From: Actinomycetes bacterium
Lineage (GTDB): Bacteria > Actinomycetota > Acidimicrobiia > Acidimicrobiales > Microtrichaceae
Assembly: GCA_030621865.1 (NCBI GenBank)
Contig: JAUXGW010000009.1
Location: 1-32,826, forward strand
DNA: 32,826 nt
Reading direction: 5' to 3'
Under the pieces are notes generated by a model that did no database searches, was not told the DNA's origin, and was given only the letters and a program-made list of their open reading frames with translations. Position numbers and translations under genes: made by a program. Shown piece after piece: positions 2,063 through 9,841 of this stretch. Every line of letters starts with the position of its first letter. The first letter of the stretch is position 1.

Positions 2063-3826
2063 TCAGTCGCCCACGAGCACGGTGTCTGTGTCAACGCCCG
2101 AGCGCAGGATCTTTCCCGAGGTCGTGCCGTTGAACTGTCCGTCGGTCACAGTTTCGACTCCACCGAGAAACACGTGGCGAATACCAGCCGAGTCGGAATG
2201 GAGCCTTGACTCCCCGGCGGGGAGATCCGCCACCATGGTGAGGATCTCCGAGTCGATTGTTTCCGGATCGAAGACCACGAGGTCCGCGTGGGCCCCAACG
2301 GCCAGAACGCCGCGGTCCCGCAGTCCGAACAGCTCGGCCGGAACCTGGGTGAGCATCTGCACTGCCCGTTCCAGCGACACGAGCTTGCGGCCGCGCAGGC
2401 AGTCAGCGAGGAATCGGGTCGGATAACCGGAACCCATCATGCGGTCGAGGTGGGCTCCGGCGTCTGAGCCGCCGAGCATCACCGATGGGTGACCCCAGGC
2501 CTCCTGGCGCAGATCCCATGACTCGGGATCATTGTCGGTTGCACCCGGCCACAGAATCGTCTGCAGGTCATCCTCGAGAACCACGTCGAGCAGGGTGTCG
2601 AAGGGATTGTCGTCGCCACGTTCGGTGGCGATGTCGCCCACTTTGCGCCCTGAAAGGCCTGCAGTGGCCCCGCTGAATGTGTCACCGATCACGTAGATGT
2701 CCCATCCAGTGAGCCGGGCGAACACTCCGGCATCGGGTGAGGCGGCGCGTTCCTGCATGAATTTGCGGACCTCCGGATCGCGCAGCTTCTCCATCCGATC
2801 CGCGAGTGGCAGACCGAGAATGTCGCCCCAGTCCGGAAGCAGGTTGAGCGCACAGAAGTTGAGGAAGCTCATGTTCATGGGGACGATCACAGGCATGGTG
2901 AGAGCCACCACCCTGGCTCCCTCGTCGGCGCAATGGTCCATTGCCGCGATCTGATTCCGGTATCGCTCCGGCGCATGGGAATCCACCGTCAGCACGTTCC
3001 AGTTCAAGGGTCGTTTGCCCGTCTTGGAGAACTGGATCATGAACTCGACTTCTTCAGGTTCGAATCCGTCGAGACAGCCATCGGATGCAAATTCCAGAGT
3101 GGTGCCCTCATGCTGTGACACAACTTCGGCCAGGGCGAGGACTTCGGACTCGGTGGCCCAGCGCGAAGCGACCGGCTCGCCGGCGCCATCGGAATGCGTG
3201 CGCGCACGGGTGGTGGAGAATCCCATGCCGCCGGCAGCCAGGCTCTCGCCCAACAGCTCGCGCATGGCCTCGATCTGGTCCGGTGTGGCTTCGTTGCCAA
3301 CAGAATCCTCACCCATAACCTCCCGGCGGATTGCGCAGTGGCCAACCAGGAATCCGGCGTTGACACCGATGTTTCCATCAAGGCGATTGAGGTAATCGCC
3401 CGTTGATGACCACTTCCAGTCGACTCCCTCAGCCAGTGCAGCGAGCGGCATCCCTTCAACCCTGGCCATCATCCTGGCTGTGTACTCGCCATCGCCCGGA
3501 CGAACCGGGGCAAGGGTGAATCCGCAGTTGCCCGCAATCACGGAGGTGACTCCATGGATGCTCGAAGGTGAGGCGGAAGGATCCCAGAGAAGTTGTGCGT
3601 CGTAGTGGGTGTGCGGATCGATGAAACCCGGGCAGACCACGAGTCCTTCACCATCGATGGTTCGCCTTGCTCCGGTCACAGTTCCGGGTTCCGCCATCGC
3701 AGTTATGCGGCCCTCGGTCACGGCGAGGTCCCCGGCGCGTGGTTCGCTGCCGGTTCCATCAACGATCAGGACTCCACTGATCAAGAGATCGACGCTGCCG
3801 CTGTCGGTTGGTGCTTCACCTGACAT
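2063..3826 (-). CDS. Amidohydrolase of the N-acyl-D-amino-acid deacylase (COG3653) family
   Basis: Cytoplasmic metal-dependent hydrolase of the amidohydrolase superfamily, 587 residues, which is slightly longer than classical D-aminoacylases. It shows the N-terminal beta-sandwich strand (DLLISGVLIVDGTG), the metal-binding HxH in DPHTHYD (His72, His74), the bridging-Cys motif GNCGFTLAP (Cys101) and the catalytic-Asp block GGSDAGAH (Asp455). A C-terminal ADLVVFDP strand closes the sandwich. The two downstream His-containing motifs usual in D-aminoacylases (SHxRxE-like and SHHK-like) are not recognisable: the corresponding region reads LEFASDG and LNWNVL. The substrate is therefore uncertain. 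ATG start at 3826. It is divergent from the Liv-type transporter and shares a palindromic site with it, suggesting that it processes the imported compound. Confidence 0.88.
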   Translation of the reverse strand: MSGEAPTDSGSVDLLISGVLIVDGTGSEPRAGDLAVTEGRITAMAEPGTVTGARRTIDGEGLVVCPGFIDPHTHYDAQLLWDPSASPSSIHGVTSVIAGNCGFTLAPVRPGDGEYTARMMARVEGMPLAALAEGVDWKWSSTGDYLNRLDGNIGVNAGFLVGHCAIRREVMGEDSVGNEATPDQIEAMRELLGESLAAGGMGFSTTRARTHSDGAGEPVASRWATESEVLALAEVVSQHEGTTLEFASDGCLDGFEPEEVEFMIQFSKTGKRPLNWNVLTVDSHAPERYRNQIAAMDHCADEGARVVALTMPVIVPMNMSFLNFCALNLLPDWGDILGLPLADRMEKLRDPEVRKFMQERAASPDAGVFARLTGWDIYVIGDTFSGATAGLSGRKVGDIATERGDDNPFDTLLDVVLEDDLQTILWPGATDNDPESWDLRQEAWGHPSVMLGGSDAGAHLDRMMGSGYPTRFLADCLRGRKLVSLERAVQMLTQVPAELFGLRDRGVLAVGAHADLVVFDPETIDSEILTMVADLPAGESRLHSDSAGIRHVFLGGVETVTDGQFNGTTSGKILRSGVDTDTVLVGD

Positions 3827-3854
3827 TTTCGCTTGGACTCCCGAGGTTGCGTGG

Positions 3855-3875
3855 AATCTGACGGTCTGTCAGATT
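3855..3875. promoter_or_regulatory. Perfect inverted repeat, candidate operator between divergent amidohydrolase and transporter
   Basis: Half-sites AATCTGAC (3855-3862) and GTCAGATT (3868-3875) are exact reverse complements around a 5-nt spacer GGTCT. A smaller nested palindrome, TCTG-T-CAGA, spans 3865-3873. A further half-site-like GTCAGA lies at 3890-3895. The site is 28-48 bp upstream of the amidohydrolase start and about 120 bp upstream of the binding-protein start. Its size and symmetry fit a dimeric TetR- or GntR-type repressor. No regulator gene lies in the window. Confidence 0.6.
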
Positions 3876-3993
3876 TGTGCACCAATCGTGTCAGACGCTT
3901 TGCAGTAATGTCGAGCGAACGACGCCACACAAATGGTTGACCCGCAGTTGACGTCCAACAGCCAAATGGGGAACAACCGAATATGGGGGAACA

Positions 3994-5424
3994 ATGAGGA
4001 AGTCACTCAGATGGGTCGCTGCGCTTGTGGCCGTGATCACTTTTGCCGGCGCTTGTAGCGCCAAGAACGGCGATGACAGCGCCAGCGAGGATGAGTCCTC
4101 GGCTTCGGAAGAGTCGGCCGAGAAGGATTCAGCCACTGACTTCGGCACACTCGACGGGCCTTGCGGCGATGGTGACTACACGGTCAATGCCGATGAGGCC
4201 GGAATCGGCGCAGACAAGCTCTATCTGGCCGCGGCGAATGACCGCAGCGCCACAATTCGTCCGGGCCTGAACAAGGAGCTCTGGGACACCTCCGTTGCGT
4301 TCACCGAATGGTGCAACTCCGTGGGTGGCATCGGGGGACTCGAGATCGAGCTGATCGACATGGATGGCCAGCTGCTCGAGGTGGAATCCGCCATGGTGAA
4401 TACCTGTAACGACGCATTCATGATGGTTGGTGGCGGCCTCGTCCAGGATCAGTTGGAGTTCACGGACAAGCCCGAGAGCGACTTCCACCTGTGTGGCATG
4501 GCCGACGTTCCCGGATTCGCAGTTTCTCCCGAAAAGGCTGATTCCAACGGACAGATCCAGGCGATTCCACACCCATCCGACGAGATCACTGCCTCTCAGA
4601 TGATTGCCCTGAAGGAAGTGCACCCGGAAGCCGCTGAGAAGATGGCCGAGGTCTGGGGCGATCTCCCCTCGATGGAGGCAATCAAGAACCAGAGCGTTGC
4701 CATCATGGAGGAGCAGGGCATCGAGAACGTCGGTGTCTTCTCCTACCCGATCACCGGCCTCGAGGACTGGACTCCACTGGCACAGCAGATCATCAGCAGT
4801 GATGCCGGTTCACTCCACTTCGTGGGTGAGCCGACCAATCTCGGCAACCTTGTGTCCAAGCTTCGCGAGCAGGGCTGGGAAGGTGTTCCCGTTGTCGAGA
4901 CCAACTCCTATGACCCGGTCTATCTGGAATCCACCACTCCCGCCAGCGCGGCTGAGGGTTCGTTCATTCGTTCGGTGTTCCACCCGTTCGAAGAGGCTTC
5001 GGAGTGGCCGGCCGTTCAGCAGTATCTGGACATACTCGAAGAGGCAGTGCCCGAGCACAAGGAGCGGGCACTCCTCGGAATGCAGGGTTTCAGCGCCTGG
5101 TTGTTGTTCGCCGAGGCGGCCAACGACTGTGCCGCCGGCAACGACAATGAGCTCACAAGGGATTGTGTGCTGTTCGCTGCTGATGACATCAACGCCTGGA
5201 CCGGTGGCGGACTGCACTCGGAAATGGATCCGGGTGGTGTCGGTGCCACTCCACCCGCTTGTGAACTCCAGCTTGGTGTGCTCGACGGCGAGTTCGTTCG
5301 TGTCTTTCCCGAACTCGGCAGCGACGACGACGATGGTGACGGCTTCAACTGCCCAGATGACGCCGAGGTGTCCGTTCCTGCCAACGAAGGACTCGGCGTC
5401 GTCGATCCGGATCGGGCGATCTGA
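3994..5424 (+). CDS. Branched-chain amino acid-type ABC transporter substrate-binding lipoprotein
   Basis: Extracytoplasmic solute receptor of the LivJ/Peripla_BP_6 class, 476 residues. It has a basic N-terminus, a hydrophobic signal segment and a lipoprotein-like cysteine at residue 21 (FAGAC; the -3 position is Ala rather than Leu, so the lipobox is imperfect). A Ser/Glu/Asp-rich linker (about residues 22-48) follows, then two alpha/beta lobes with segments such as WCNSVGGIGG and GVPVVETNSYDP. The tail contains an Asp-rich SDDDDGDGFNCPDD stretch resembling an EF-hand or thrombospondin-3-like calcium loop. The ATG at 3994 is preceded by GGGGGA. It is first in the operon with the permease and ATPases. 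The ligand is unknown; amino acids, amides or N-acyl amino acids are possible. Confidence 0.88.
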   Translation: MRKSLRWVAALVAVITFAGACSAKNGDDSASEDESSASEESAEKDSATDFGTLDGPCGDGDYTVNADEAGIGADKLYLAAANDRSATIRPGLNKELWDTSVAFTEWCNSVGGIGGLEIELIDMDGQLLEVESAMVNTCNDAFMMVGGGLVQDQLEFTDKPESDFHLCGMADVPGFAVSPEKADSNGQIQAIPHPSDEITASQMIALKEVHPEAAEKMAEVWGDLPSMEAIKNQSVAIMEEQGIENVGVFSYPITGLEDWTPLAQQIISSDAGSLHFVGEPTNLGNLVSKLREQGWEGVPVVETNSYDPVYLESTTPASAAEGSFIRSVFHPFEEASEWPAVQQYLDILEEAVPEHKERALLGMQGFSAWLLFAEAANDCAAGNDNELTRDCVLFAADDINAWTGGGLHSEMDPGGVGATPPACELQLGVLDGEFVRVFPELGSDDDDGDGFNCPDDAEVSVPANEGLGVVDPDRAI

Positions 5425-5457: not shown

Positions 5458-7869
5458 GTGGACAAATTCCTTCAGTTCACGGTTCTAGGCCTTTCCCAGG
5501 CGGCGATCTTCGCGATCGCCGCCTCGGGGTTGGTTGTGACCTACAGCACTTCGGGCATTTTCAACTTTGCCCACGGTGCGTTCGGAATGATGGCCGCCTT
5601 CATGTACTGGCAGGTGCATGTGGCCTGGGACGTTCCCACCTGGCCCGCCTTCTTCCTGGTCGTGTTCATCATCGCCCCATTGTTCGGGGCCTTCATCGAA
5701 CGCGTCATCATGCGCGGCATCGAGGACGCGCCCGAAGTGGTGAAGATCGTGGTCACGGTCTCCCTCATGGTTGCACTGCTGTTCCTGGCGATAGCCATCT
5801 GGCCCCAGGATGTGGCCCACCCGGTTGGGGCTCTGGTTGAAGGAGGTCAGCTCGAAATCGCGGGCGTGGTCCTGCCCAATCAGAGGTTGATGATCATTGG
5901 CGTGGCCATTGCGGTGGCCATCGGCCTCTGGCTGTTGCTCAAGGCGACCCGACTCGGCGTTGCGATGCGTGCCGTGGTGGATGACCGCTCGCTCCTTCAG
6001 CTGAACGGTGGTCGGCCCGCTCGTACCGCAATGATGTCGTGGGCCATCGGTGCCGGACTGGCAGCGATATCCGGCGTGCTGCTGGCAGCCGAGCAGCCAC
6101 CTTCGGCGATCACCCTGACCTTCCTGGTGGTGAACGCGTATGCCGCAGCCGTGGTTGGCCGACTTCGCAGCCTTCCGGGGGCCTTCCTGGGCGCTGTCAT
6201 CCTGGGCTTGGCCGTGTCGTACACCGCTGCCTACCTGCCGTCGGATGCCTCCATCGGCTCGTTCAGTCTCTCCAATCTCCCGCGCGCGGTGCCAGCAATC
6301 ATGTTGTTCATCGTGATCGTGGCTCAACCGGAGGCCCGACTTCGGGCACACACCACCATCCGGACCCGTGTGGTCGGCGTGCCGACTCAGCGAACGGCGG
6401 CGATCGGTGCCTTGGTTCTGGTGCTGGGAACGGCGGCAATCGGATCGATGATTGCCGGGCCTGACCTGCCTCTGGTTTCCAAGGCTCTCTGGTTCGGCCT
6501 CATCACGGTCTCACTGGTCCCGCTCACTGGTTATGCGGGCCAGGTTTCGTTGGCTCAACTCACCTTCACCGGCATCGGCGCCCTGGCCATGGCCGAATGG
6601 GGCGCCAACGGTTCACCGTTTGCGGTGATGTTGTCCATTGGGCTTTGTGCGCTGGTGGGAGCAGTCGTCGCTTTGCCGGCGTTGCGACTGACTGGCATCT
6701 ATCTGGCGCTGGCCACAGCGGCCTTTGCGATTTTCTGTACCTGGATGGTGTTCAGCCAGTCCTCACTTCTGGTGGGTGGAACCGTTGCAGTCCCACCCCT
6801 GAGCATCTTCGGTTGGACTGCCGACACACAGTTCAAGCAACTGATGGTCACTGCCGTGGTCTTCGCGATCATTGCGAACATCCTGGTTCTGCTTCGTCGC
6901 AGTGCATGGGGTAGACGCCTGACCGCAATGAGGGACTCGCCGGTAGCCTGCGCAACGCTCGGTCTCAACCTGACCTCGACCAAGGTGGGAGTATTTGCGC
7001 TTTCCGCTGCCATTGCAGGTTCTGCCGGTGCAATCGCCGGCCGCAGTTTCGTCTCGGATGACTTTGGGCTCACTCCGTCATTGCAGGTGACGATGCTCGC
7101 CGTGGTGGGTGGTGTCGGCTCCATTGGAGGTGCCCTGTTGGGAGGTTTGCTTCTGGGCATGTTCCCGATCGGATCCTCGGTCTTCGCTGCAAACGCGATT
7201 GGCGTGTTCCGGTTCGTCACTGTCCCGGTCACCAAGGTCATCACGATCATGCCCGGGTTCATGGGAATCGGCATGGGTCGGAACCCGGATGGCGCTGCGT
7301 CCGAGATTGCACGCAGCTACAAGTCGCTGATCGAATCCGTTCCGGCCTCAGTGGTGACAGCGCTCGCCTTCGTGATCCTGTGGATGTCGGCTCGCCTCGA
7401 GTACATCTCCAACTGGGACTTCTTTGCCGGAGTGCTGGTGATCCTGCTTGCGGTGATGCCGCTCATCGGCTCGATTCTGCCGCCACCGGGTGTTCAGGTT
7501 GCGGGCCGCCGACTTGCCGCCGGGTTGTGGCTCGTGTTTGCGCTTCTGATCACGGTGGTTCTGCCCTGGGAAACCCTGGTCGAGTCCAACGGATTCCGTA
7601 TCCTGCTCATGCTCGTGTGGGCCGGGGTCGTGGCGAGCATCGCTGTCGGCGTCCATGGAGCCGTGGACCTCGAGGCGCTGGGTATGGGCACAGACACCGC
7701 TGCTGAGATCGAGAGTCCCGATTTGATGGGCTTCGGCACCGAGATCACGCGTGCCGATGCCCAGTTGGCTGCTCGCGCGATCGGCCTCGACGGCGAACTC
7801 GACCGGCCCGACACGGGTTCCACGGCTGTGACGCACGCTCGCTCGGGTGTGGAGGTTGGTTCCACATGA
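5458..7869 (+). CDS. Fused LivH-LivM branched-chain amino acid ABC permease with extra C-terminal membrane domain
   Basis: Inner-membrane pore of the importer, 803 residues combining both permease subunits. Residues 1-295 are LivH-like (GLVVTYSTSGIFNFAHGAFG near residues 25-43; the cytoplasmic-loop ERVIMR). Residues about 315-615 are LivM-like (GYAGQVSLAQLTFTGIGA at 358-375; LRLTGIYLALAT at 409-420; the EAA-like RDSPVACATLGLN loop at 492-504). A third part (about 620-803) has some four further hydrophobic segments and a soluble tail ending at residue 803; this is not part of standard LivM. Start GTG at 5458 has only a weak upstream ribosome-binding site. The stop overlaps the livG start by 4 bp (ATGA), indicating translational coupling. 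Confidence 0.92.
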   Translation: MDKFLQFTVLGLSQAAIFAIAASGLVVTYSTSGIFNFAHGAFGMMAAFMYWQVHVAWDVPTWPAFFLVVFIIAPLFGAFIERVIMRGIEDAPEVVKIVVTVSLMVALLFLAIAIWPQDVAHPVGALVEGGQLEIAGVVLPNQRLMIIGVAIAVAIGLWLLLKATRLGVAMRAVVDDRSLLQLNGGRPARTAMMSWAIGAGLAAISGVLLAAEQPPSAITLTFLVVNAYAAAVVGRLRSLPGAFLGAVILGLAVSYTAAYLPSDASIGSFSLSNLPRAVPAIMLFIVIVAQPEARLRAHTTIRTRVVGVPTQRTAAIGALVLVLGTAAIGSMIAGPDLPLVSKALWFGLITVSLVPLTGYAGQVSLAQLTFTGIGALAMAEWGANGSPFAVMLSIGLCALVGAVVALPALRLTGIYLALATAAFAIFCTWMVFSQSSLLVGGTVAVPPLSIFGWTADTQFKQLMVTAVVFAIIANILVLLRRSAWGRRLTAMRDSPVACATLGLNLTSTKVGVFALSAAIAGSAGAIAGRSFVSDDFGLTPSLQVTMLAVVGGVGSIGGALLGGLLLGMFPIGSSVFAANAIGVFRFVTVPVTKVITIMPGFMGIGMGRNPDGAASEIARSYKSLIESVPASVVTALAFVILWMSARLEYISNWDFFAGVLVILLAVMPLIGSILPPPGVQVAGRRLAAGLWLVFALLITVVLPWETLVESNGFRILLMLVWAGVVASIAVGVHGAVDLEALGMGTDTAAEIESPDLMGFGTEITRADAQLAARAIGLDGELDRPDTGSTAVTHARSGVEVGST

Positions 7870-8627
7870 GCACACTCGAGGTCTCGGATCTCACGGTACG
7901 ATTCGGTGGCAATCTGGCCGTCAGCAAGGTTTCCCTGTCGGTGGCGGGCGGGGAGATAGTTGGACTGATCGGACCGAACGGCGCAGGCAAGACCACCGTG
8001 TTCAATGCGGTTTCAGGCGTGGTTACCCCGACCTCGGGGAAAGTTGCCCTGGCCGGTCGTGACATCTCCAAACTGCCGACCTACAAACGTGCGCGGGCGG
8101 GTCTCGGACGAACCTTCCAGCGGCTCGAGGTGTTTTCATCCCTTTCGGTTCGCGGCAACGTGCAGGTTGGCCTGGAAATTCGCAAGTCCTGGTCACGGCG
8201 GGGTGGTTGTGATCGGCAGTACCTGGCTGACGGCGCTGATCTCAGCGCTGACGGCGAGGTGTCGCTGATCCTGGACCGGTTGGACCTGTTGGGTCTGGCC
8301 GACGAGGTCGTCGGTGCGCTGCCCACCGGTCAGGCCCGCCTCGTGGAACTTGGGCGCGCGTTGGCCGCCCGGCCGTCGATCCTTCTGCTGGATGAGCCGG
8401 CTTCGGGCCTGGACGAGAACGAAACCACACGTTTCGGGGAATTGCTCCGCTCCCTGAGTGAAGCCGGGCTGGGGATTCTGCTGGTCGAACACGACGTTGG
8501 ACTGGTGATGGAGGTTTGCGACAGCCTCCACGTGCTTGATTTCGGATCGGTGATCGCGTCGGGTGACGCAGACGAGGTGCGCAACAATGCCGCGGTGGTC
8601 GATGCATATCTGGGAGCCGGAACATGA
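7866..8627 (+). CDS. livG: Branched-chain amino acid-type ABC transporter ATP-binding protein (LivG)
   Basis: Cytoplasmic ATPase subunit powering the LivHM permease, 253 residues, typical of the family. Walker A GPNGAGKT lies at residues 36-43, the Q-loop region around GRTFQR (81-86), Walker B LLLDE at 173-177 and the switch His in VEHD. The ABC signature, normally LSYGQQ or similar, reads LPTGQARLVELGRAL (153-157 PTGQA), a degenerate version. LivG features include the early GRTFQRLEVF motif. The start overlaps the permease stop and its own stop overlaps livF, both as ATGA. It is assigned as LivG rather than LivF because of the GRTFQ motif and its position before the second ATPase. Confidence 0.93.
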   Translation: MSTLEVSDLTVRFGGNLAVSKVSLSVAGGEIVGLIGPNGAGKTTVFNAVSGVVTPTSGKVALAGRDISKLPTYKRARAGLGRTFQRLEVFSSLSVRGNVQVGLEIRKSWSRRGGCDRQYLADGADLSADGEVSLILDRLDLLGLADEVVGALPTGQARLVELGRALAARPSILLLDEPASGLDENETTRFGELLRSLSEAGLGILLVEHDVGLVMEVCDSLHVLDFGSVIASGDADEVRNNAAVVDAYLGAGT

Positions 8628-9343
8628 CTGATGGGCCTGCAGCGGTCGAACCGCTTCTGGAACTGCGCGACATCTTTGCCTCCTATGGAACCATCGAAGT
8701 GCTCCACGGGGTGGATCTGGTTGTTCCTCCAGCTTCCGTGGTTGCCCTGCTCGGCCCCAACGGTGCCGGCAAGACCACCACACTGTCAGTGGCGGCGGGC
8801 CTCCTCACGCCCAAATCGGGTGGCGTCTACATGGCCGGTCGCGAAGTGAGCGGCGTGAAGCCCGACGAACTCGCGCGCAAGCGGGTTGTCACGATACCCG
8901 AAGGCAAGGGAATCTTTCCGAACCTGACCGTGAAGGAAAACCTCCTGATGGCCAGCTACACGGGTGTGTCGGTCGACCATATCGAAACGGTCGCATTCGA
9001 GAGATTCCCGCGGCTGGCGGAGCGAAGCTCCCAAGTTGCCGGCACCCTCTCCGGTGGTGAACAGCAAATGCTCGCGATGGCTCGTGGCCTTGCTGTGGAG
9101 CCGGCCATCCTGCTGCTCGACGAACTCTCGATGGGGTTGGCACCCTTGATCGTCGAGGAGCTCTATGGAATCGTTGCGCAGATCGCCAAGTCCGGAACAT
9201 CGATCCTCGTGGTCGAGCAGTTTGCCCGCGCCGTGTTGGGTGTTGCCGACACCGCAGCGGTGATGGTCAACGGCCGCATCAGGGCCGTCGGAAAGCCATC
9301 AGAAATCGAGAAGGACCTGTCCGCCGCCTATCTGGGAGCCTGA
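8624..9343 (+). CDS. livF: Branched-chain amino acid-type ABC transporter ATP-binding protein (LivF)
   Basis: Second ATPase of the importer, 239 residues. Walker A GPNGAGKT lies at 44-51, the LivF-typical IPEGKGIFPNLTVKENL segment at 91-107, a canonical signature LSGGEQQ at 142-148, Walker B ILLLDE at 162-167 and the LivF-specific ELSMGLAP at 167-174. It pairs with LivG to form the heterodimeric nucleotide-binding module, in which LivG carries the weaker signature. The ATG start overlaps livG by 4 bp. It is the last gene of the transporter operon; the next gene starts 6 bp after its stop and may be co-transcribed. Confidence 0.95.
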   Translation: MTDGPAAVEPLLELRDIFASYGTIEVLHGVDLVVPPASVVALLGPNGAGKTTTLSVAAGLLTPKSGGVYMAGREVSGVKPDELARKRVVTIPEGKGIFPNLTVKENLLMASYTGVSVDHIETVAFERFPRLAERSSQVAGTLSGGEQQMLAMARGLAVEPAILLLDELSMGLAPLIVEELYGIVAQIAKSGTSILVVEQFARAVLGVADTAAVMVNGRIRAVGKPSEIEKDLSAAYLGA

Positions 9344-9349
9344 TTAACA

Positions 9350-9841
9350 ATGAGCGACAACACCACTGACCAAACGACCACTGACCAAACGACCACTGGC
9401 CAGGACACCGCAGGCCAGAATGCCACCGGAAGCGAAGTCCGCGTGGAGCAATTTCGATCCGAGATCGAAGACTTGAAACTGAAGGGTTCCTCGGGTAGTT
9501 CCGAGCGCTGGCTCCTCATCATCGGTGTCCTGCTTGCAGTGGCCGGCGTGATCCTCGCCATCCTGGGTGCGGTGCAGGTGATCAACTCGGGGGACAGCCC
9601 TGCTGACCAGCGTGCGTTCATGGCTTCCGGCTCAATCCTTGGCTTGGTTCTGGTTGTCGCGGGAGCGGCACTGTTCCTTCGATACTCACTCGGACGCTAC
9701 CTGCGGTTCTGGCTGGTTCGGCTTGTCTACGAGGGCCGCACCGACACGGATCGGGTTGTTGATGCAATAGACCGCGCGAGCGGCGCTTCTGCCCCGCAGG
9801 AATCTGCCGGCGGATTTGCTCCCTCCGATACCGAATCGTAG
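9350..9841 (+). CDS. Small two-TM membrane protein with Thr/Gln-rich repeat N-terminus
   Basis: Protein of unknown function, 163 residues. The N-terminus is built of five-residue repeats (TTDQT, TTDQT, TTGQD, TAGQN) encoded by tandem 15-bp units. A short charged, helical stretch follows (VEQFRSEIEDLKLKG), then two hydrophobic segments (about residues 60-82 and 95-115) and a basic patch (RYSLGRYLRFWLVRLVYEGR). The C-terminus is polar. It starts 6 bp after livF and could be the last gene of that operon, or an independent gene before the atp cluster. I do not recognise the family. Confidence 0.75.
   Translation: MSDNTTDQTTTDQTTTGQDTAGQNATGSEVRVEQFRSEIEDLKLKGSSGSSERWLLIIGVLLAVAGVILAILGAVQVINSGDSPADQRAFMASGSILGLVLVVAGAALFLRYSLGRYLRFWLVRLVYEGRTDTDRVVDAIDRASGASAPQESAGGFAPSDTES
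9362..9421. repeat. 15-bp tandem repeat, four copies, in coding sequence
   Basis: Units begin at 9362, 9377, 9392 and 9407. The first two are identical (ACCACTGACCAAACG) and the next two are increasingly diverged. The unit length is a multiple of three and keeps frame, giving five-residue Thr/Gln repeats at the N-terminus of the small membrane protein. Confidence 0.85.

Follow-up and report, generated by a model that had tools for sequence, protein, structure and literature searches.

Introduction

KstR of mycobacteria is a TetR-family repressor of lipid and cholesterol breakdown genes, and its palindromes are intergenic, many of them lying between divergent genes and overlapping the -10 region, according to the excerpted text of PMC1995591. 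For KstR2, the excerpt of PMC3068626 describes a palindrome between divergent operons with CoA-linked ring breakdown genes; the motifs are mostly 22 to 82 bp from the start, the regulon has 15 genes, and three motifs lie near kstR2. MftR belongs to the same family and has a long-chain acyl-CoA as its effector (PMC8728441, in excerpt). FdmR, going by its title alone, is a repressor of mycobacterial fatty-acid catabolism (cited in the excerpts of PMC9301340 and PMC8728441).

The system described here comprises a palindrome at 3855-3875 of the window (the whole stretch of DNA analysed, 32,826 nucleotides) and a candidate regulator that we call TetR-A. With KstR it shares a predicted TetR-family repressor, palindromes of divergent genes over a putative -10 element, and lipid breakdown genes; however, the KstR operator reads TnnAACnnGTTnnA in the excerpt of PMC1995591, whereas the motif here reads TCTGACGNNNCGTCAGA, and an NCBIfam scan gave no KstR match for TetR-A. 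The likeness to KstR2 covers the TetR-family repressor, the palindrome between divergent operons, CoA-linked breakdown and similar motif-to-start distances, but the KstR2 operator AnCAAGnnCTTGnT (PMC3068626, in excerpt) differs from [A/T]TCTGACGNNNCGTCAGA[T/A], and the sites here are dispersed, unlike the three motifs near kstR2. MftR resembles our system as a TetR-family protein whose palindromic operator has a 5-nt spacer, yet that operator, T-N2-GGCA-N5-TGCC-N2-A, is different (PMC8728441, in excerpt). TetR-A reached no NCBIfam equivalog cut-off, scoring 19.3 bits against 224.9 for MftR. FdmR can be likened to the predicted TetR-A regulon as a repressor of fatty-acid catabolism, again by title alone. 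The nearest solved relative of TetR-A is EthR of Mycobacterium tuberculosis (profile E 7.5e-12, fold Z about 20), which has the same fold at about 20% identity and is likened to TetR-A by the protein alone. The known target of EthR is a monooxygenase.

Results

The palindrome and its flanking genes

The palindrome lies between a divergent amidohydrolase gene and an importer operon, arranged as follows.

2063..3826, minus strand: D-aminoacylase-like amidohydrolase (Amidohydro_3), the divergent target; its orthologue is divergent in 21 family genomes
3855..3875, no strand: putative operator palindrome, perfect 8-5-8, AATCTGAC-GGTCT-GTCAGATT, assigned from recurrence and conservation
3994..5424, plus strand: Liv-type substrate-binding protein (Peripla_BP_6), first gene of the importer operon
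5458..7869, plus strand: permease with two BPD_transp_2 stretches (fused LivH-LivM type)
7866..8627, plus strand: ABC ATPase, LivG type
8624..9343, plus strand: ABC ATPase, LivF/UrtE type

The perfect 8+8 bp palindrome with 5-nt spacing reported in an earlier note was confirmed with exact arms, and it is a member of the family motif [A/T]TCTGACGNNNCGTCAGA[T/A]. It stands 28 bp from the ATG of the amidohydrolase gene and 118 bp from that of the binding-protein gene. Taken alone, such a repeat or a GTCAGA half-site is unremarkable in this window: its roughly 33 kb should contain about 0.8 perfect 8-N5-8 inverted repeats by chance, and GTCAGA occurs 16 times against a mean of 23.5 in shuffled sequences, which is no enrichment. 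What makes the palindrome significant is its recurrence in the genome and its conservation between paired orthologues.

D-aminoacylase is the closest match of the amidohydrolase (E 6.6e-40), and the aligned parts keep the His-Thr-His, Asn-Cys-Gly and Gly-Ser-Asp segments. For the importer, no solved relative at E <= 0.001 was found to suggest a substrate. The permease is one 803-residue protein instead of two separate permeases, its first half matching UrtB/LivH and its second half UrtC. An ORF of 163 codons (9350-9841) without a Pfam match follows the last ATPase gene at a distance of 6 bp and may belong to the importer operon.

Recurrence of the motif in the genome and the family

The pattern TCTGAC-N5-GTCAGA was found six times exactly in the 2,878,366-bp (2.88 Mb) genome, where 0.12 occurrences are expected from composition, and its reversed-pattern control was not found there at all. 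The earlier note had regarded occurrence at random positions genome-wide as speaking against a regulatory role; instead, the six exact sites are at gene starts or close to them, and among 14 additional sites with one mismatch, eight are upstream of predicted genes and six are inside them or at their ends. At up to two mismatches the genome has 112 sites against 38 for the reversed control, which is too noisy for assigning two-mismatch sites individually, and such assignments were rejected.

All 33 family genomes contain the exact motif (1 to 15 per genome, 210 in total), and the reversed pattern is absent from each of them. By its named relatives, the family belongs with Microthrixaceae and Candidatus Microthrix. 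An alignment was built from 69 sites: 54 drawn from the 210 in the family, and the full set of 15 exact ones in Aquihabitans sp. G128. Positions that the search pattern left free proved to be conserved, with G and C at 88% beside the spacer and A or T at 92% just outside the arms. The sites are usually within about 60 bp of predicted gene starts.

Conservation between orthologous divergent pairs

In 21 family genomes, the loci examined show the amidohydrolase divergent from a relative of the binding protein; the amidohydrolase orthologues of the relatives are 58 to 94% identical. An exact site lies between the two genes in 16 of the 21 pairs, spread over 10 genera, and a one-mismatch site in two more (G028 and G023), so that 18 of 21 carry the site at no more than one mismatch and the conservation expected of a shared operator is borne out. 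The remaining three pairs lack it, with best matches at four (G026), five (G003) and three (G008) mismatches. In contrast, none of 13 binding-protein loci without the amidohydrolase (best-match loci, flanks of up to 1.5 kb) has a site just upstream (Fisher P 1e-5 for loci with versus without the pair); in one of them a site with one mismatch lies at a distance of about 1.4 kb. A 23-bp block at 3855-3877 is invariant in five genomes of three genera in which the surrounding DNA has diverged.

Several loci show variations on this arrangement. In five pairs from genera g15 and g3 (L105, L107, L109, L111 and L250) the centre of the site reads TCTGACACTCTGTCAGA and not the commoner TCTGACGNNNCGTCAGA, indicating that spacer composition is lineage-specific. 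G015 has two exact palindromes, 24 bp apart, between the amidohydrolase and binding-protein genes (L119, 3012-3052); it is also a family genome without a close TetR-A match. Extra tandem binding-protein paralogues stand near the pair in G018 (L247, 16022-19098) and G013 (L246, 2108-5078), with no site directly upstream of these paralogues; in G018 a one-mismatch site precedes the first of them by about 0.7 kb.

Promoter-like elements and the third half-site

Three short elements accompany the palindrome.

3847..3852, plus strand: putative -35 element TTGCGT of the binding-protein promoter; TTG conserved
3870..3875, plus strand: putative -10 element CAGATT in the right arm of the operator, proposed from sequence and conservation
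3890..3895, plus strand: third half-site GTCAGA, a lineage-specific conserved element with no role assigned

CAGATT starts 17 nt after TTGCGT. In an alignment of 19 rows from 18 genomes, 12 rows have a TTG at 10 or 11 nt ahead of the palindrome. The two elements would form a binding-protein promoter that overlaps the operator, a proposal that applies to this promoter only: a simple promoter scan found no promoter at the palindrome region, and the TTG element was not seen in a wider set of 32 oriented sites.

The GTCAGA at 3890 pointed out earlier is present at 3890-3895, but its conservation is confined to the nearest lineages. It is exact in four of the 18 aligned genomes (our own, G018, G019 and G020) and reads GCCAGA in G013; the hexamer found in G015 belongs to a second palindrome. 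We rejected it as a part of the operator on account of the missing dyad partner at operator spacing, its chance frequency in the window and its exact presence in four of 18 genomes.

Genes beside the sites

In the genome under study, exact or one-mismatch sites stand at the starts of genes for acyl-CoA dehydrogenases, a family III CoA-transferase, a CoA_trans-type CoA-transferase, a wax ester synthase/DGAT, an enoyl-CoA hydratase and an AMP-binding ligase; others precede two OB_ChsH2 plus thiolase pairs, an Amidohydro_2 protein and a short-chain dehydrogenase. We then assigned Pfam families to the 83 predicted genes beside the 69 aligned sites. Among the best 25 of 50 families were 14 acyl-CoA dehydrogenases, seven each of CoA-transferase III, short-chain dehydrogenase and Amidohydro_2 proteins, five AMP-binding proteins, four each of luciferase-like monooxygenases, thiolases, Amidohydro_3 and OB_ChsH2 proteins, and three binding proteins. 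Single matches to TrkH, PPK2, EAL and sulfatase families fit this picture poorly. A control set of 68 genes, taken from 20 stretches chosen arbitrarily in G005 and Aquihabitans, gave only HTH_18 and TetR_N twice among the best 25 of 51 families, and single lipid genes may stand among the families beyond these 25. In this genome, most of the six exact sites and the eight one-mismatch sites in promoter position precede predicted genes of CoA-dependent acid and lipid breakdown. A reasonable, though unproven, link between the importer, the hydrolase and the rest of the regulon is that an N-acyl or similar compound yields an acid which is then activated with CoA.

TetR-A as the candidate regulator

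Near the palindrome itself we noted no regulator gene, and the earlier proposal that it is controlled from elsewhere fits our best candidate, which sits on another contig. TetR-A is a TetR-family protein (locus L047, 5035-5754, plus strand, contig C351), one of 28 TetR_N matches in the genome. An exact site lies between its gene and the next one, for an acyl-CoA dehydrogenase; a second exact site is found close to where the contig begins, and there is a two-mismatch site near the start of the TetR-A gene itself. TetR genes on contigs C82 and C266 are also near one-mismatch sites. The protein has a TetR_N helix-turn-helix (30.2 bits, Pfam cut-off 24) and a TetR_C_38 domain (112 bits). Its model (pLDDT 86.9) has the all-helical TetR fold and matches TetR-family structures best, with FasR, DesT and FadR lower in the match list than EthR.

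Close TetR-A orthologues are present in 29 of the 33 family genomes. An exact site lies within 150 bp of TetR-A at 16 of the 29 loci and is lacking within that distance at 13, several of which are incomplete. The four family genomes without a close match are 62 to 87% complete and have one (G012), 11 (G015), five (G016) and eight (G017) sites. These absences reflect either incomplete assembly or another reader and count against TetR-A; because G015, G016 and G017 (75, 76 and 87% complete) have sites without a close match, we rated TetR-A lower as the reader.

The motif and TetR-A (threshold E <= 1e-25) were then searched in 296 genomes of the class, in which they occur in 99 and 70 genomes, respectively. 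At least three sites were found in 47 of the 70 genomes with TetR-A and in none of the 226 without it, a contrast whose Fisher value is not to be taken literally because the genomes are related; the two groups hold 312 and 41 sites, respectively, and nine of the genomes with TetR-A lack an exact site altogether. In family f2, all six genomes with TetR-A have 3 to 16 sites and all 16 without it have none or one. The contrast holds inside three genera too. In four single-contig genomes TetR-A is 3 to 7 kb from a site, and in three of them it is the closest to a site among the TetR genes listed. G005 is the exception: at least four of its TetR genes, including two in the same cluster, have a shorter distance to a site than TetR-A has.

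TetR-A orthologues from Streptomyces, Embleya and Microtetraspora are among the best matches at 44 to 47% identity, and that of S. scabiei keeps the segment AGTSPATFYQYF. All seven neighbourhoods read from these genera have one to four sites at up to one mismatch. By the same measure, nine genomes with these orthologues have 22 to 77 sites against 0 to 7 in the control; the corresponding counts are 33 and 1 for Aquihabitans, and six and none for a genome titled Ca. Microthrix parvicella. At two streptomycete loci the genes near sites encode a thiolase, an acyl-CoA dehydrogenase and a CoA-ligase-type protein. The recurrence of the motif, its conservation between orthologous pairs, the kinds of predicted target genes and its co-distribution with TetR-A can all be read from the genomes themselves.

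Discussion

According to the above analysis, the palindrome is probably a TetR-type operator of the divergent pair and one of many sites of a regulon whose reader is most likely TetR-A. The promoter-like elements overlap the operator and the site is close to the gene starts, which makes repression the likely mode. The earlier suggestion of one repressor for uptake and hydrolysis was supported as to the repressor, but the predicted regulon is much wider than that pair.

The same operator and regulon might instead be read by TetR-B (L045, 907-1716, minus strand) or by the third TetR protein of the G005 cluster (2101429), which we consider unlikely. TetR-B adjoins an OB_ChsH2/thiolase operon and has an exact site (L045, 1730) just upstream, between its gene and the divergent operon; sites lie near it in G005 and G013 too, and the three family genomes with sites but no close TetR-A match would also suit another reader. 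However, TetR-B (E <= 1e-20) occurs in only 12 of the 296 class genomes, against 47 with at least three sites, and it has no match at E <= 1e-12 in G018, a genome with seven sites; with so narrow a distribution, TetR-B was rejected as the reader. It may also have a site of its own, since another palindrome lies beside its gene. This palindrome, TCTGAACGCAGTTCAGA (L045, 1686-1702, contig C85), is 44 bp from the exact site and may be the operator of TetR-B. The best NCBIfam match of TetR-B is KstR, at 35.5 of 280 bits.

There is only a slim chance that the motif is a real regulon operator with a different type of reader, either an activator or a protein outside the TetR family. Activators can use divergent palindromes too, but this site overlaps conserved promoter-like elements and the sites are usually within about 60 bp of predicted gene starts, as for repressors, and the co-distribution points to TetR-A. 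A chance inverted repeat, of which about 0.8 would be expected in the window, a terminator, or an RNA hairpin that has no part in regulation can be regarded as refuted by the genome recurrence, by 210 sites against no reversed-pattern matches in 33 family genomes, and by the conserved position between orthologous pairs. No terminator-like site was found at 3780-4020, and the palindrome lies between two gene starts.

With TetR-A as the reader, we infer the following model from sequence analysis, including binding, repression, control of both genes, the ligand and the transported substrate. A TetR-A dimer would bind the operator over the promoter spacer and the -10 element and so block RNA polymerase, and the bound protein would also cover the sequence immediately before the amidohydrolase start. 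Control on the amidohydrolase side, and a substrate common to both genes, would follow from the divergent arrangement. A pathway intermediate, most plausibly an acyl-CoA, would release TetR-A, whereupon the importer, hydrolase, acyl-CoA dehydrogenase, ligase and CoA-transferase genes would be induced together. The regulon content and the analogy with acyl-CoA-binding TetR regulators such as MftR suggest that the inducer is a CoA thioester or its precursor.

The operator is of a known kind, and the regulon is apparently undescribed, although it may have been described earlier in the case of FdmR. No description of the motif or of TetR-A was found among the papers listed from open-licence PMC literature; for one search, which matched letters and not topics, this is weak evidence of absence; the strings CTGAC and GTCAG are absent from the excerpted main text of PMC3511530 and PMC7324645. 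As a tentative wider reading, about which we remain somewhat doubtful, TetR-A may be an undescribed old master repressor of acyl-CoA catabolism in actinobacteria, its operator code [A/T]TCTGACGNNNCGTCAGA[T/A] kept from Acidimicrobiia to Streptomyces. The Microthrixaceae-like family would then have recruited the ABC importer and the D-aminoacylase-like hydrolase into this regulon, coupling the uptake of amide or acylated substrates to CoA-thioester breakdown.

A single palindrome has in this way yielded a regulon prediction, together with a candidate regulator, for a group that stands close to Candidatus Microthrix. To our knowledge, little genetics has been done in this group. Because TetR-A and the motif occur together in Streptomyces, the prediction is testable in laboratory strains. 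The importer and the amidohydrolase, whose substrate is unassigned, would gain a functional context in the CoA-linked breakdown of acids.
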